Shown here one piece after another: positions 2,782 through 9,925 of a stretch of 15,448 nucleotides of DNA; positions within the stretch are counted from its first letter, which is position 1; each line of letters opens with the position of its first letter. The DNA is from Bacteroidota bacterium. GTDB taxonomy: Bacteria > Bacteroidota > Ignavibacteria > Kapaibacteriales > UBA2268. The stretch is taken from assembly GCA_022708005.1 (NCBI GenBank), contig JAKIZN010000004.1, forward strand, positions 1-15,448, read 5' to 3'. Made by a program: the position numbers and the translations under genes. Under the pieces are notes generated by a model, which saw nothing but the letters and a program-made list of their open reading frames with translations, had not been told where the DNA came from and ran no database searches.

Positions 2782-2832
2782 CCTATTCGCTGTTCTCCAG
2801 CTGTCCTACACCTTCGAGGTGTAGGACAGCTG
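2782..2832. repeat. palindromic repeat, copy 1 (16-bp stem)
   Basis: The core 2799-2831 is a perfect inverted repeat with a 15-bp stem (AGCTGTCCTACACCT and its complement) and a TCG loop. C2798 and G2832 extend the stem to 16 bp. The left flank, CCTATTCGCTGTTCTCC (2782-2798), is also part of the repeat because copy 2 at 9814-9863 shares it with one mismatch. Over the 50 aligned bases (2782-2831) the two copies differ at three positions. Two of these are the paired bases C2801 and G2829, which are A and T in copy 2. The element lies 66 bases after the stop codon of the exported protein and 23 bases after that of the convergent ferredoxin-like gene. No T-tract follows the stem on either strand, so it is not a typical intrinsic terminator. 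Confidence 0.92.
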
Positions 2833-2854: not shown

Positions 2855-3697
2855 CTAATTTTTGAATACTATGGTTTGCTTGATTAGCTCGCCAGAAATA
2901 GCTAAAGTATGTTCCTCGATAGTTAGATTTTGCTTTCCAGACTGTCTCGCCGCTTCGACTGCTATATGGCTCAGCCCTCCGCAACAAGGCACTTGCACCC
3001 TAACAATAGTAACTTTTGGAATATTATTCGCGGCAAAAATTGCTGTAAGTTTAGGAATATATGGCTCGGTTCTGTCTAATTTGGGGCAAGCCACAATGAC
3101 ACTTCTGCCCTTGATGTAATCCTCATGAACATTAGCATTAACTATCGGTCCGCAAGTGGACATAATAATCAGCTCTTTATTATTAAAGAACGAAGCGGAA
3201 GGATTGACAAGGTGCAACTGAACGGGCCATTGCTCTAACTCCGACGGCATTCTTACGCTTGTTTCAAGTTTCGGTTTTTCTTCCCGCTTAATTTCCCTAG
3301 CAAGTGTGCCCGGGCAGGCACTAACCACTCTCAGTGGCTCGTTGTCTAAATTTATTTCTATTCCTCTTGCTTTGAGTATGTCCATTGCTTCGTTTAAATA
3401 TCCTATTTCATTGTGGTCTTTCAAATGTTTTAGGTGGGCAACCACAACGCTTCTGGGCTTTTTGAGCATAGATTCCATAACAAGTGCTTCATTATACGGC
3501 TCTGCTTCACGCTCTATTACTTTTATAGCGCCCTCGGGGCAATCGCCAATGCAAGCGCCAAGCCCATCACAAAATAAATCGCTTATTAATCTAGCTTTGC
3601 CATCAATTATTTGAATGGCTCCCTCGTGGCAAGCTGGCACGCAAAGCCCGCACCCGTTGCACTTTTCTTCGTCAATTTCAATTACTTTTCTTATCAT
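2855..3697 (-). CDS. 4Fe-4S dicluster ferredoxin-like protein with C-terminal CCGG domain
   Basis: This 280-residue protein begins with two iron-sulfur cluster sites. The first is a standard CxxCxxCxxxC (C13, C16, C19, C23). The second is C43, C49 and C53 in CDGLGACIGDCPEGA, a spacing used in related oxidoreductase ferredoxin domains; its fourth ligand is not obvious from the sequence. The remaining 200 residues contain conserved patches: ACPGT near 129, a QWPVQLHLVNPSASFF block near 157-172, ACPKLD near 200, and VPCCGG at 236-241. I recognise this layout as a widespread family of anaerobe and facultative-anaerobe iron-sulfur proteins, usually annotated only as 4Fe-4S binding protein. The extra cysteines near 130, 180, 200 and 238-239 may bind a further cluster or metal. 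The protein is probably cytoplasmic because it has no signal peptide or membrane segment. It is separated from serS upstream by a probable terminator, so it should have its own promoter. Its electron partner and substrate are not evident. Confidence 0.85.
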   Translation of the reverse strand: MIRKVIEIDEEKCNGCGLCVPACHEGAIQIIDGKARLISDLFCDGLGACIGDCPEGAIKVIEREAEPYNEALVMESMLKKPRSVVVAHLKHLKDHNEIGYLNEAMDILKARGIEINLDNEPLRVVSACPGTLAREIKREEKPKLETSVRMPSELEQWPVQLHLVNPSASFFNNKELIIMSTCGPIVNANVHEDYIKGRSVIVACPKLDRTEPYIPKLTAIFAANNIPKVTIVRVQVPCCGGLSHIAVEAARQSGKQNLTIEEHTLAISGELIKQTIVFKN

Positions 3698-7278: not shown

Positions 7279-7326
7279 GCATTGATACTAATTTCAATCG
7301 ATAAATATTAATTTTAATTGATAATT

Positions 7327-8931
7327 ATGAATCCAAAAATATTAATTGTAGAAGATAACGAAATTGTTGCAGAGCAAATATATTTTTTTCTTAAACGATA
7401 TAATTACGAGTGCTTCACTGTCGATACTGGCGAAGCTGCTCTTACAGAAGGGATTAGCTATTATCCCGACTTAATTCTTATGGATATAAGGCTAGCAGGA
7501 AAAATAGACGGCATAGAAACTGCCCGCAGAATCAAAGAAATTCGGGATTTGCCAATAATTTTCTTGACATCGCACACAGAACCAGAGGTGATAGAGCGAG
7601 CCGTCCTTGCTGACCCAGATGGATTTTTGCCTAAGAGTACTTCCCATTCTGATTTAAAGGTTCAAATCGATTATACTTTGACAAAGCACGCTAAACTGAA
7701 GCAACAAGCCGATAGACTGAAAATTTTAGAAAATAGCACAAAAATATATGAAGCTATTTTTAATTCTTCTCGTGACGCTATATTTTTCATTAGCGAAAGT
7801 ATGGACGTGCTTTATTGGAATCCTGCTGCAGAGCGAATCTTCGGCTATAGCATCGATAGAGCTGTGGGGCAGAAAATCAGCGATTTGATTATAACTGACG
7901 AAGATAAAAATAATTTTGATGCAGATTTTCAAAATTGGATAAGCCTTCGCGAGCAACAGCCATTATATTACAACTTAACGCCTACTCTGCGGGACAAGAG
8001 TGGCAGAGAATTTCCAGCAGAGCTAATATTAGGAATTGTAGAAGACGAGACTAAGTTATTCGTGTGTGGTTTTGCCCGCGACATAACAGAAAGAGTCGTC
8101 GCCGAAGAAGAAATGTCGAAAATGATAGAGGAAATGCAGATTGCGAGAGAAAATGCCGAACAACTCGCAAACGAAGCAATAACTTTGAACTCTAAGCTAT
8201 ATGAGTCGAAAGAGATACTAAAGAACTTAAATGCGAGCAAAGATAAGTTCTTCTCTATAATAGCTCATGACTTAAAAGGACCATTCCAAGGATTATTGGG
8301 TTATACAAAAATTCTGGCGCAAGACCTCAGTTCGCTAACAAATCAAGAAATCGAAGAGTTGGGAAGTAGCTTGCACCAATCAGCAAGCCAATTATTTAAG
8401 CTGCTCGAAAACTTATTAAGTTGGTCGAGAATACAAAGGGGCGTTATGGAATGCGAGGCAGCGAATCTCAATTTTTCGCTACTTGCCGAGCAAGTTACAA
8501 ATATTGCCAAATTAAGGTCTAGCCAGAAAAATATAACGCTAATCAATAATGTACCAAATGATTTTTACGTTTTAGCAGACGTGAATATGCTCAACACTGT
8601 TTTGAGAAATTTGATGTCTAATGCAGTTAAATTCACTCGCAAAGATGGCACTATCGAGATTTCCGCAAAGTACGAAAGCCCAGATGTTGCCAAAATTGAA
8701 GTTGCCGATAATGGAGTTGGCATGGACGATGAGTGCTTGCAGCAGATTTTTAAAATCGACTCATACCACAGCAAACCGGGCACAGAGAACGAACAAGGCA
8801 CAGGGCTTGGGCTGATTCTCTGCAAAGAGCTAGTAGAAAAAAATAACGGCACAATCACAGTTAAAAGTAAAGTTGGCGAAGGAACTACATTTTCAATCCT
8901 GCTCCCTGCTGGAACGGCAGAAAGCCAATGA
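7327..8931 (+). CDS. REC-PAS-histidine kinase (soluble hybrid sensor)
   Basis: The domain order is receiver, PAS, coiled coil, HisKA, HATPase. The receiver (1-120) has acid pocket E9-D10, phosphoacceptor D53 in LILMDIRL, T81 and K103. The PAS domain (about 137-257) reads YWNPAAERIFGYS and ends in the FARDITER motif typical of PAS/PAC. A coiled linker (258-305) leads to the H-box FFSIIAHDLKGP with phosphorylated H314. The ATPase has an N-box (N432 in LMSNAVKFT), DNGVG (461-465) and GTGLG (491-495). All catalytic residues are intact. There is no membrane segment, so it senses in the cytoplasm, or takes phosphate from another kinase through its receiver. An in-frame TTG at 7318 would add MII, but I prefer the ATG at 7327, which begins the usual MNPKILIVEDN. 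No Shine-Dalgarno is visible. Its last four bases (ATGA) overlap the next gene, so the pair is translationally coupled. No DNA-binding response regulator is adjacent, so the output is unknown. Confidence 0.95.
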   Translation: MNPKILIVEDNEIVAEQIYFFLKRYNYECFTVDTGEAALTEGISYYPDLILMDIRLAGKIDGIETARRIKEIRDLPIIFLTSHTEPEVIERAVLADPDGFLPKSTSHSDLKVQIDYTLTKHAKLKQQADRLKILENSTKIYEAIFNSSRDAIFFISESMDVLYWNPAAERIFGYSIDRAVGQKISDLIITDEDKNNFDADFQNWISLREQQPLYYNLTPTLRDKSGREFPAELILGIVEDETKLFVCGFARDITERVVAEEEMSKMIEEMQIARENAEQLANEAITLNSKLYESKEILKNLNASKDKFFSIIAHDLKGPFQGLLGYTKILAQDLSSLTNQEIEELGSSLHQSASQLFKLLENLLSWSRIQRGVMECEAANLNFSLLAEQVTNIAKLRSSQKNITLINNVPNDFYVLADVNMLNTVLRNLMSNAVKFTRKDGTIEISAKYESPDVAKIEVADNGVGMDDECLQQIFKIDSYHSKPGTENEQGTGLGLILCKELVEKNNGTITVKSKVGEGTTFSILLPAGTAESQ

Positions 8932-9782
8932 ATAGCGAATTAAAATATAGCAAAATAAAGCAGTTAGAAATAAAATCTACACTTATTGCACAAAGTCAAT
9001 TGGCGGGCGCCTATAAGTCTGCATTCAAGGGCGTGGGACTAGATTACTCCCAATCGAGAGTGTTCGAAGAAGGCGATGATTATCGCCGAATAGATAGCCG
9101 ATTGACCGCAAGAAATCATCAAATTTACACTAAGACTTTCGATGAAGAAAGGTTGCTGAATGTCATACTGCTCGTTGACGTTAGCGGTTCGATGCAGTGC
9201 GGGAACGCTGGCAGCTCCAACGCTGAACTGTCGGCGGAAGCCGCGGCTATAATTGCTGGTGCCGCACATTTTAATGGCGATAAAGTTGGGTTTATTACCT
9301 TTGACGAAAGTATTATTGATGCTACCCCGCCATCGCAAAGAATTGATAATATCCCCAAGATGCTTAAACATATATTAGACGCAAATAGCAATGGCAGCAC
9401 AAATATTGCCGTTGCATTGCAAAAATTGCTCTACATAATTCAAGAAAGAGCAATCGTTTTTATTTTATCAGATTTTCAATCTCAAAATTTCAAAAAAGAA
9501 CTCGCTGTAGCTTCAAAAAAATTTGATATTATTTTGCTACATTTGCGCGAGAGCATAGAAGTTGATAGCTCTATGAGCGGATTTGTTAATTTCATAGACT
9601 CGGAAACTAAAAGCCGCAAAGTGGCGCATTTAGGGAAGAATTTTGAATACCGCGACGCTCGCGGCGAACTTGAAATGATTTCAAAAGAACTAAATATAGA
9701 TTTAGTGAGCTTTTCCACTGCCGATGAACTTATAGCAAATCTTATAAATTTAATGAATGAGCGAACAAGGCGAAAAGTTTAA
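8928..9782 (+). CDS. DUF58 / VWA-domain protein
   Basis: At 284 residues this is a DUF58 family protein. The signature GDDYRRIDSRLTAR (49-62), followed by the strand-turn TKTFDEERLLNVILLVDVSGSM (68-89), is diagnostic. The second part is a von Willebrand A fold with a MIDAS metal site: D84, S86 and S88 in DVSGSM, T158 in GSTNI and D182 in LSDF, all present. DUF58 proteins are usually encoded beside a MoxR-type AAA+ ATPase and act as chaperone-like or regulatory partners. No MoxR gene is visible here; the upstream partner is a histidine kinase. The ATG lies within the kinase stop (ATGA), so expression is tied to it. There is no signal peptide or membrane segment, whereas many DUF58 proteins have N-terminal membrane helices. 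The copy therefore looks like the shorter cytoplasmic type. A functional link with the kinase is inference from gene coupling only. Confidence 0.93.
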   Translation: MNSELKYSKIKQLEIKSTLIAQSQLAGAYKSAFKGVGLDYSQSRVFEEGDDYRRIDSRLTARNHQIYTKTFDEERLLNVILLVDVSGSMQCGNAGSSNAELSAEAAAIIAGAAHFNGDKVGFITFDESIIDATPPSQRIDNIPKMLKHILDANSNGSTNIAVALQKLLYIIQERAIVFILSDFQSQNFKKELAVASKKFDIILLHLRESIEVDSSMSGFVNFIDSETKSRKVAHLGKNFEYRDARGELEMISKELNIDLVSFSTADELIANLINLMNERTRRKV

Positions 9783-9813
9783 TCGAAATAATGCATGAGA
9801 AGCTTTTCTATTA

Positions 9814-9863
9814 CCTATTAGCTGTTCTCCAGATGTCCTACACCTTCGAGGTGTAGGACATCT
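9814..9863. repeat. palindromic repeat, copy 2 (15-bp stem)
   Basis: The core 9831-9863 is a perfect inverted repeat with a 15-bp stem (AGATGTCCTACACCT and its complement) and a TCG loop. The flank CCTATTAGCTGTTCTCC (9814-9830) matches copy 1 at 2782-2798 with one mismatch. The pair A9833-T9861 replaces C2801-G2829 of copy 1. It lies 48 bases after the DUF58 stop codon and 62 bases after the end of the convergent rsmE. A weaker shared word, AAATAATGCA, lies further left at 9786-9795 here and 2759-2768 at copy 1. It may belong to the element, with a 5-base length difference in between. No T-tract follows the stem on either strand. Confidence 0.92.
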
Positions 9864-9925
9864 TAAAGCCTAACCTTTCCTTACGAATAGACAATCAGTT
9901 AGAGTTTCTATTGAATTATTGAGGG

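Follow-up and report, generated by a model that had tools for sequence, protein, structure and literature searches.

The 33-nt hairpin that occurs twice in the window, i.e., the whole stretch of 15,448 nucleotides that was analyzed from a Bacteroidota bacterium, is probably a REP-like repeat that spread as a single-stranded DNA hairpin recognized by a RAYT-like HUH transposase. Because several relatives have REP-type transposase genes surrounded by hairpins of this build, it is likely to be a tiny hitchhiking repeat spread by such an enzyme, and this association with RAYT-like genes groups it with the REP/RAYT systems. Observed features of the repeat are its copy number, its 33-nt unit, compensated changes between genera, dispersal as a bare unit in a related genome (G014), and palindromes of one build around and inside RAYT-like genes. 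In this way, an uncultured lineage close to Ignavibacteria/Kapabacteria would contribute a so far unnamed high-copy hairpin to the REP/RAYT systems; the hairpin has a clear architecture (33 nt, a nested dyad, no GTAG tag) and may be one of the atypical REPs of the literature.

The hairpin in the source genome and in relatives

The two copies in the window (2782-2831 and 9814-9863) are identical at 47 of 50 bases. They differ at position 2788 (C/A) in the unpaired flank and at positions 2801 (C/A) and 2829 (G/T), which together form a single compensated stem pair, C2801-G2829 in copy 1 and A9833-T9861 in copy 2. Copy 1 has a stem of 16 bp (2798-2832), one pair longer than that of copy 2 (15 bp; 9831-9863), and the loop is TCG in both. 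These features had been described in a sequence-only reading of the window and were all borne out by recomparison. The palindrome proper, to which no strand is assigned, extends from 2799 to 2831 in copy 1 (15+3+15 nt, loop at 2814-2816, extra outer pair 2798/2832) and from 9831 to 9863 in copy 2, which equals the majority 33-mer of the copies sampled from the source genome. Each 15-nt arm is itself a near-palindrome. The folding z-scores are -7.1 for copy 1 and -6.4 for copy 2, and none of 200 dinucleotide shuffles folded as well.

The assembly of the source genome (G000) comprises 2,022,654 bases in 421 contigs, with a completeness of 82.66% and an estimated contamination of 3.8%. A search with a 25-nt core, allowing up to three mismatches, gave 167 forward and 174 reverse matches and none for a reversed-pattern control. 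Since a near-palindrome is usually counted once per strand, this corresponds to about 170 copies in the 2.02-Mb assembly, as had been anticipated from the presence of two copies in a short stretch. In a copy sample of 681,777 bases, consisting of the window and 80 fetched contigs known to hold copies, 131 copies with up to three mismatches were found, 101 of which are identical in this sample biased toward exact copies; among copies whose contig has another exact copy, 43 of 76 are identical. When the spacing of the halves was left free, 131 of 137 full copies in the sample were exactly 33 nt long. Twenty other contigs (C97-C115, C117) contained no copies, a biased sample that is uninformative on density because the core search had given no exact match in these contigs beforehand. 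Among loci that were fetched largely for the hairpin family of the window, the class with a 15-bp stem and a 3-nt loop lies far above all other stem/loop classes, with 99 palindromes in loci of the source genome and 23 in those of relatives. The 15-nt halves occur 254 times within palindromes and 18 times outside, several of the latter being palindromes changed in length or cut by a contig end; the idea of an uptake sequence was rejected due to this rarity of halves outside palindromes.

By SerRS comparison (82% identity), the nearest named relatives of the source organism are assemblies labeled Ignavibacteria bacterium, Bacteroidetes bacterium, and Candidatus Kapabacteria bacterium. Among 60 genomes, seven including the source genome matched the core with up to three mismatches. 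A stricter 33-nt pattern was present in 5 of 395 genomes of the phylum, again including the source genome, in a sample that omits some of these 60 genomes. A loose pattern matched 19 of the 395 genomes including the source genome, and 14 genomes also matched the reversed control once; upon inspection, clear matches beyond the source genome were confined to G105, G236, G032, G017, G008, and G248, and the rest were discarded, with G016 being weak (13/15 pairs) and 11 other genomes appearing chance-like. Hairpins of the same family are held by G003, G008, G014, G015 (one copy, 13/15 pairs), G017, G018, G031, and G032, and further 33-mers by G248 (same class) and by G105 and G236 (same phylum, AGGTGTCCTACACCT). 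The flanks of the hairpin vary from genus to genus.

Covariation was analyzed with 38 distinct 33-mers, 36 from the family of the window in the wide sense and two from a sister family. In this set, 12 of 15 stem pairs change on both sides across genera, and 96.7% of cells are paired. Cells with double-sided changes number 45 compared with 7.4 after shuffling, with none of 500 shuffles as high, and the covariation score is 0.282 compared with 0.092 for shuffled and at most 0.080 for slid sequences. The prediction of a large structured family with compensated stem changes thus held across genera. An alternative fold into two 6-bp hairpins keeps 88.2% of pairs. The hexamers within an arm match each other at four to six of six positions in 26 of 28 distinct, albeit related, arms; a control with random 15-mers was set aside for this comparison, its 6-of-6 bin being inflated, probably by masked N runs. 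The hairpins of G014 each contain four perfect hexamers (AGATGT-CCA-ACATCT).

Within the source genome, the pair changes in the 131 copies comprise 20 mismatched and 15 G-T pairs vs. only four copies with a Watson-Crick compensated change. Selection on folding, which had been proposed from the paired change between the two window copies with the proviso that mismatches as frequent as compensated changes would refute it, is not supported by this genome alone.

The hairpin is dispersed as a bare unit in G014, where 82 forward and 86 reverse half-sites were found. No two of 20 distinct fetched copies share the adjacent 12 nt at 10 of 12 positions on either side, and local alignment of 80-nt flanks, judged against shuffles, revealed that 14 of 20 copies have flanks unlike all others and that, in the remaining six, one of the two flanks contains a separate repeat also present next to another copy. 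These copies with one flank in a further repeat fall into two sets (L354, L360, L364, L365 and L361, L369), and the distance of the repeat to the hairpin varies.

Gene context and composite elements

Both copies in the window are located between convergent genes. Copy 1 lies between a plus-strand ORF of 180 aa without a Pfam match (2190-2732) and a minus-strand 4Fe-4S ferredoxin-type ORF (2855-3697), and copy 2 lies between a plus-strand DUF58 ORF (8928-9782) and a minus-strand ORF with an RNA methyltransferase domain (PF04452; 9926-10618). Elsewhere in the window, positions 7318-8931 hold a single ORF with receiver, PAS, HisKA, and HATPase domains (hybrid sensor). According to home-made gene calls, 47 of the 131 copies of the source genome are in convergent, 53 in tandem, and 16 in divergent contexts, 14 are at contig edges, and one is within a gene call. 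Considering gaps of at least 60 bp in the sampled contigs, which were selected for containing a copy, the hairpin is present in 44 of 63 gaps between convergent genes, 51 of 138 between tandem genes, and 16 of 61 between divergent genes.

This distribution, the convergent neighbors of both window copies, and the better conservation of the hairpin compared with its arms (see below) would fit a transcriptional 3'-end element, either a bidirectional terminator or an mRNA-stabilizing hairpin, which is selected at gene ends. Such a function is an improbable explanation of the repeat. Just 29 of 131 copies in the source genome, 12 of 45 copies in relatives, and 9 of 22 rows from G014 (three rows being one place) have a T-run no more than 8 nt away on one side or the other; the succession of hairpin and T-run that defines an intrinsic terminator is absent from most copies. 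In addition, the low number of copies in some relatives indicates that the hairpin is no general terminator there, and the gap count is drawn from contigs picked for holding copies. The loop strand shows a ratio of 27:26 relative to the direction of tandem transcription. Furthermore, tolerance of insertions accounts for the same gene context, as described for REPs in the relevant passages of PMC3733652, where they are said to occur chiefly in unidirectional and convergent intergenic regions. For a REP-like repeat, copies would accordingly be expected to settle mainly at the 3' ends of genes, where insertion may be tolerated. As a separate observation, a conserved hairpin (AAATCTTTCATC...GATGAAAGATTT) with a T-rich stretch behind it is present at the same place in four relatives (L061-L064, near position 7790) and is perhaps an ordinary terminator.

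Many copies in the source genome are part of a composite element bounded by terminal inverted repeats (TIRs) with the consensus AAATAATGCAATAGAAAC, often preceded by TTWAWCCC. Copy 2 is enclosed by such an element of 136 bp (9786-9921, plus strand) with the TIRs AAATAATGCATGAGAAGC (9786-9803) and GTTTCTATTGAATTATTG (9904-9921); in between, the hairpin adjoins a 'GG' arm (9804-9830, plus strand; outward reading GGAGAACAGC) and a 'TA' arm starting with TAAAGCC (9864-9903, plus strand). Copy 1 adjoins a left TIR (2759-2776) and a left arm, which together span 2759-2798 on the plus strand, and it looks like a partial composite because no right TIR is paired with the left one. In the copy sample, 57 TIR pairs were recognized, of which 44 enclose a single hairpin, 12 lack it, and one has two; the commonest length is 136 bp. 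By this TIR-pair rule, 44 of the 131 hairpins are inside a recognized pair, and from 121 of 154 TIRs, a hairpin is reached within 700 bp on the inner side. The mean pairwise identity among 34 elements selected by their TIRs is 0.874 for the hairpin (missing in three rows), 0.81-0.84 for the TIRs, which is inflated by this very selection, and 0.68-0.71 for the arms, which is somewhat lowered by a few reversed rows.

The paired TIRs, their identity (with the inflation just mentioned), and the recurrent length would be expected if the element were a MITE mobilized by a classical TIR transposase with the hairpin as mere cargo. This is doubtful to a high degree, since similar 33-mers are found in other flanks in G014, G003, G018, G032, and others. 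Moreover, the sign of a target duplication is weak, with 11 of 52 TIR pairs showing 5-nt identity at offset 3 vs. 4.7 in shuffles, and no PF01609 transposase was found in the source genome when it was searched for the transposase families PF01609 and Y1_Tnp. Under the preferred REP-like reading, a mosaic intergenic element resembling BIMEs would have formed around the hairpin in the source genome, and this composite is predicted to be a passenger that is amplified non-autonomously. A search for an autonomous element with long-spaced hairpin halves gave no convincing candidate. Viral contigs searched with a 31-nt pattern, plasmids and phages searched with the 136-bp element, and plasmids searched with the 33-mer of a relative yielded no match.

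Several variants of the composite were noted in the source genome. In one element, a different imperfect palindrome, judged by eye, occupies the slot of the hairpin. At six places, a repeat (TTTGTCTGAATCA...), which starts with TTTGTC[TA]GAATCA, is joined to a left half-hairpin, with the full hairpin beyond (L156:556, L188:7996, L191:4437, L238, L240, L158). Nested composites (e.g., L162:963-1396, L163:5027-5461) contain arms of the type GTAACGAACCC...TTTGTAG and one or more tandem TATACGACTCCGTAGGAGTCG palindromes.

The arms are combined in a mosaic but selective manner. Three proximal types of outward arm (GG, TA, and AT) were distinguished and could be assigned for 118 of the 131 copies, giving 88 GG-TA, 16 AT-TA, 11 AT-GG, 2 TA-TA, 1 GG-GG, and 0 AT-AT pairs, i.e., three same-arm pairs vs. 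47.5 expected under random pairing. In GG/TA elements, the loop is oriented one way in 72 cases and the other way in 16. Long symmetric palindromes are presumably unstable, and the hairpin may serve as an exchange point for modules. Chimeric joins at the 33-nt repeat during assembly or binning could also produce mosaic arms, particularly in an assembly with this number of contigs and some estimated contamination. Such an artefact is highly improbable, as the arm combinations are far from random and solitary units of the same kind are found in another assembly (G014).

Within a palindrome, template switching replaces the sequence of one arm by a copy of the other. The compensated changes could therefore result from such palindrome correction when the DNA is replicated, without any selection on folding, and the occurrence of the loop in either orientation on the same arms fits this process, so that compensation need not mean selection at the RNA level. 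The near absence of long same-arm palindromes, as if lost by instability, points in the same direction. The constant 15-bp stem and 3-nt loop across genera and sequence families are not required by correction alone, and as an explanation of its own, template switching is rather unlikely. It is compatible with spread by a RAYT-like enzyme, and both can act together. Accordingly, the earlier conclusion that the paired change reflects selection on folding is retained only in part: stem changes are compensated across genera, but not within the source genome, and template switching also fits them. Paired changes among repeat copies may stem from template switching and are, alone, no proof of an RNA function.

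RAYT-like transposase genes in relatives

The connection to transposases is based on a second 15+3+15 family (ATTCATCCGATGACT) in G018, which is present on both sides of an ORF encoding 190 aa. Comparison with curated models was done for this protein only. It matched NCBIfam REP_Tyr_transpos (NF047646) with an E value of 3.4e-15 and 56.2 bits, below the cut-off of 80, and Pfam Y1_Tnp (PF01797) with an E value of 0.0013 and 19.3 bits, below the cut-off of 23; the match to the TnpA_REP structure 4er8 is weak (E 0.045). Of 60 genomes searched, 18 encode homologs of it with E <= 0.001. In all 10 aligned RAYT-like proteins, H54-F55-H56 and Y131 are invariant, giving the HUH motif and tyrosine of such transposases, and Y131 is the putative catalytic tyrosine according to its position in a YIHxNP motif.

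Palindromes with at least 14 of 15 pairs were found at 7 of 15 RAYT-like loci with E values below 1e-20, amounting to 28 palindromes in 50.6 kb; the other eight loci are without such a palindrome. In comparison, 4 of 78 SerRS control loci, which come mostly from other phyla, have a palindrome (four in 736 kb; Fisher p 1.6e-4), and a nearer control, IS200-type loci of relatives, has 1 of 10 (p 0.065 vs. the RAYT-like loci). In one contig of G014 (C93, L402), three palindromes of the window family in the G014 form AGATGTCCAACATCT are located before, inside, and after an interrupted RAYT-like gene; this is the only case of such a gene among palindromes of the window family proper (F1). G018, G032, G014:C6, G012, G008, and G006 each have their own 15+3+15 sequences at the RAYT-like gene, the palindrome of G012 (AGATGTGCCACACCT) being close to the window family. 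At a locus of G008 (C15, L382), at least seven 33-nt palindromes of the AGACATCCAATGTCT type are arranged near-tandemly on both sides of the RAYT-like gene.

In 4 of 14 mapped RAYT-like proteins, a palindrome is located within the gene itself, starting at residue 64.3 in G018, 65.3 in G032 (a copy with 13/15 pairs), 65.3 in G014:C6, and 64.7 in G012. These internal palindromes are in frame, directly follow the sequence encoding THFHF, and differ in sequence among the four genes (L373, L374, L375, L381); G012 and G014:C6 have a second palindrome in frame inside the gene. A tentative generalization is that the repeats constitute a REP class built as a palindrome of palindromes, in which four nearly identical hexamers recur every 9 nt (6+3+6+3+6+3+6 = 33 nt) and the fold could be either a single long hairpin or two small ones. 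In this scheme, each family would co-evolve with a RAYT-like enzyme carrying its own REP in frame after the HUH motif, as suggested by the position at residue 64-65 in four genes with four REP sequences. As the gene carries its own REP in frame, it could sense, or be edited by, its target. Several pairs of enzyme and repeat with different sequences and a common build are supplied by these loci, which makes it directly testable how RAYTs recognize and spread GTAG-less REPs.

A RAYT-like enzyme would bind, cut, and paste the hairpin. In the source assembly (82.7% complete), a single-sequence search revealed no RAYT-like gene, a profile of 10 RAYT-like sequences, run without a positive control, gave no match, and there was no match to Pfam Y1_Tnp (PF01797) either. 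The source genome may once have had a RAYT-like gene or may retain one in its unassembled part; if such a gene, about 0.6 kb long, lay between high-copy repeats, a fragmented assembly could miss it. The RAYT-like protein of G018 also had no match in G003, G015, and G031, which carry the window family. In G003:C6, a Y1 gene next to a hairpin was considered as a candidate partner but rejected, as it sits, judged by eye, among its own repeats of the GTAGGGGCGGGTT type.

Comparison with known repeat systems

As a 33-nt palindrome with about 170 copies, only one of 131 being within a gene call, the hairpin corresponds to the high-copy, mostly intergenic palindromes of 20-40 nt known as REPs. Neither end of the hairpin carries GTAG or CGTC as an unpaired tag; the flanks in the source genome are mostly CTCC or similar, and TAAA, and the GTAG in the 3' arm of the hairpin is paired and replaced by GTTG or GTCG in relatives. 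In the wide sense of a RAYT system, the gene in G014 is flanked by the family of the window and those at six other loci by sister families. The original statement that no named family fits is correct in that an Rfam search of the window gave no family at gathering score and that the tag is missing, but it has to be amended in that the RAYT-like genes place the hairpin with REP/RAYT systems. Among the titles found in a literature search, no description of these hairpin sequences was recognized. BIMEs are mosaic elements in which palindromes are joined to several kinds of flanking modules. The hairpin is likewise combined with several modules; in contrast to BIMEs, there is one hairpin core between two unlike arms, often in a TIR-bounded element.

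The 15-bp stem is outside the range of 5-13 bp for GTAG and 8-9 bp for CGTC REPs listed in Table 1 of PMC3733652. Atypical REPs are assigned to TnpA_REP subclass 2.6, mostly from Bacteroidetes, in passages of PMC6006769, where their structures are called weaker. The present repeats resemble this subclass as high-copy, mostly intergenic palindromes flanking a Y1 HUH gene, lacking a GT[AG]G foot, and with the Y motif YIH[QN]NP in the consensus of the RAYT-like genes of relatives. They differ from it in their 15-bp stems, 3-nt loop, and nested dyad and in the HUH motif THFH instead of NH[LIV]H. REPs in frame within the gene are called unique to subclass 2.4 in the same passages; in contrast to that subclass, whose REPs have a GT[AG]G foot, the repeats described here lack one, and the RAYT-like genes have the consensus Y motif YIHQNP. 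The mixture of features at these RAYT-like loci has no counterpart in the passages of PMC6006769.

A resemblance by description, rather than by sequence comparison, exists to the TIRtrons/TIRYT in passages of PMC3733652, in which a RAYT-related gene is located between GTAG-less inverted repeats, some of them double palindromic and some belonging to moderately abundant families. Finally, similar to the REPINs in passages of PMC3116915, two inverted palindromic units and a spacer form one long hairpin that is dispersed as a unit. A REPIN, however, is a doublet of whole REPs, whereas the hairpin described here consists of two 15-nt mini-palindromes with a 3-nt spacer, amounting to 33 nt without a GTAG tag.
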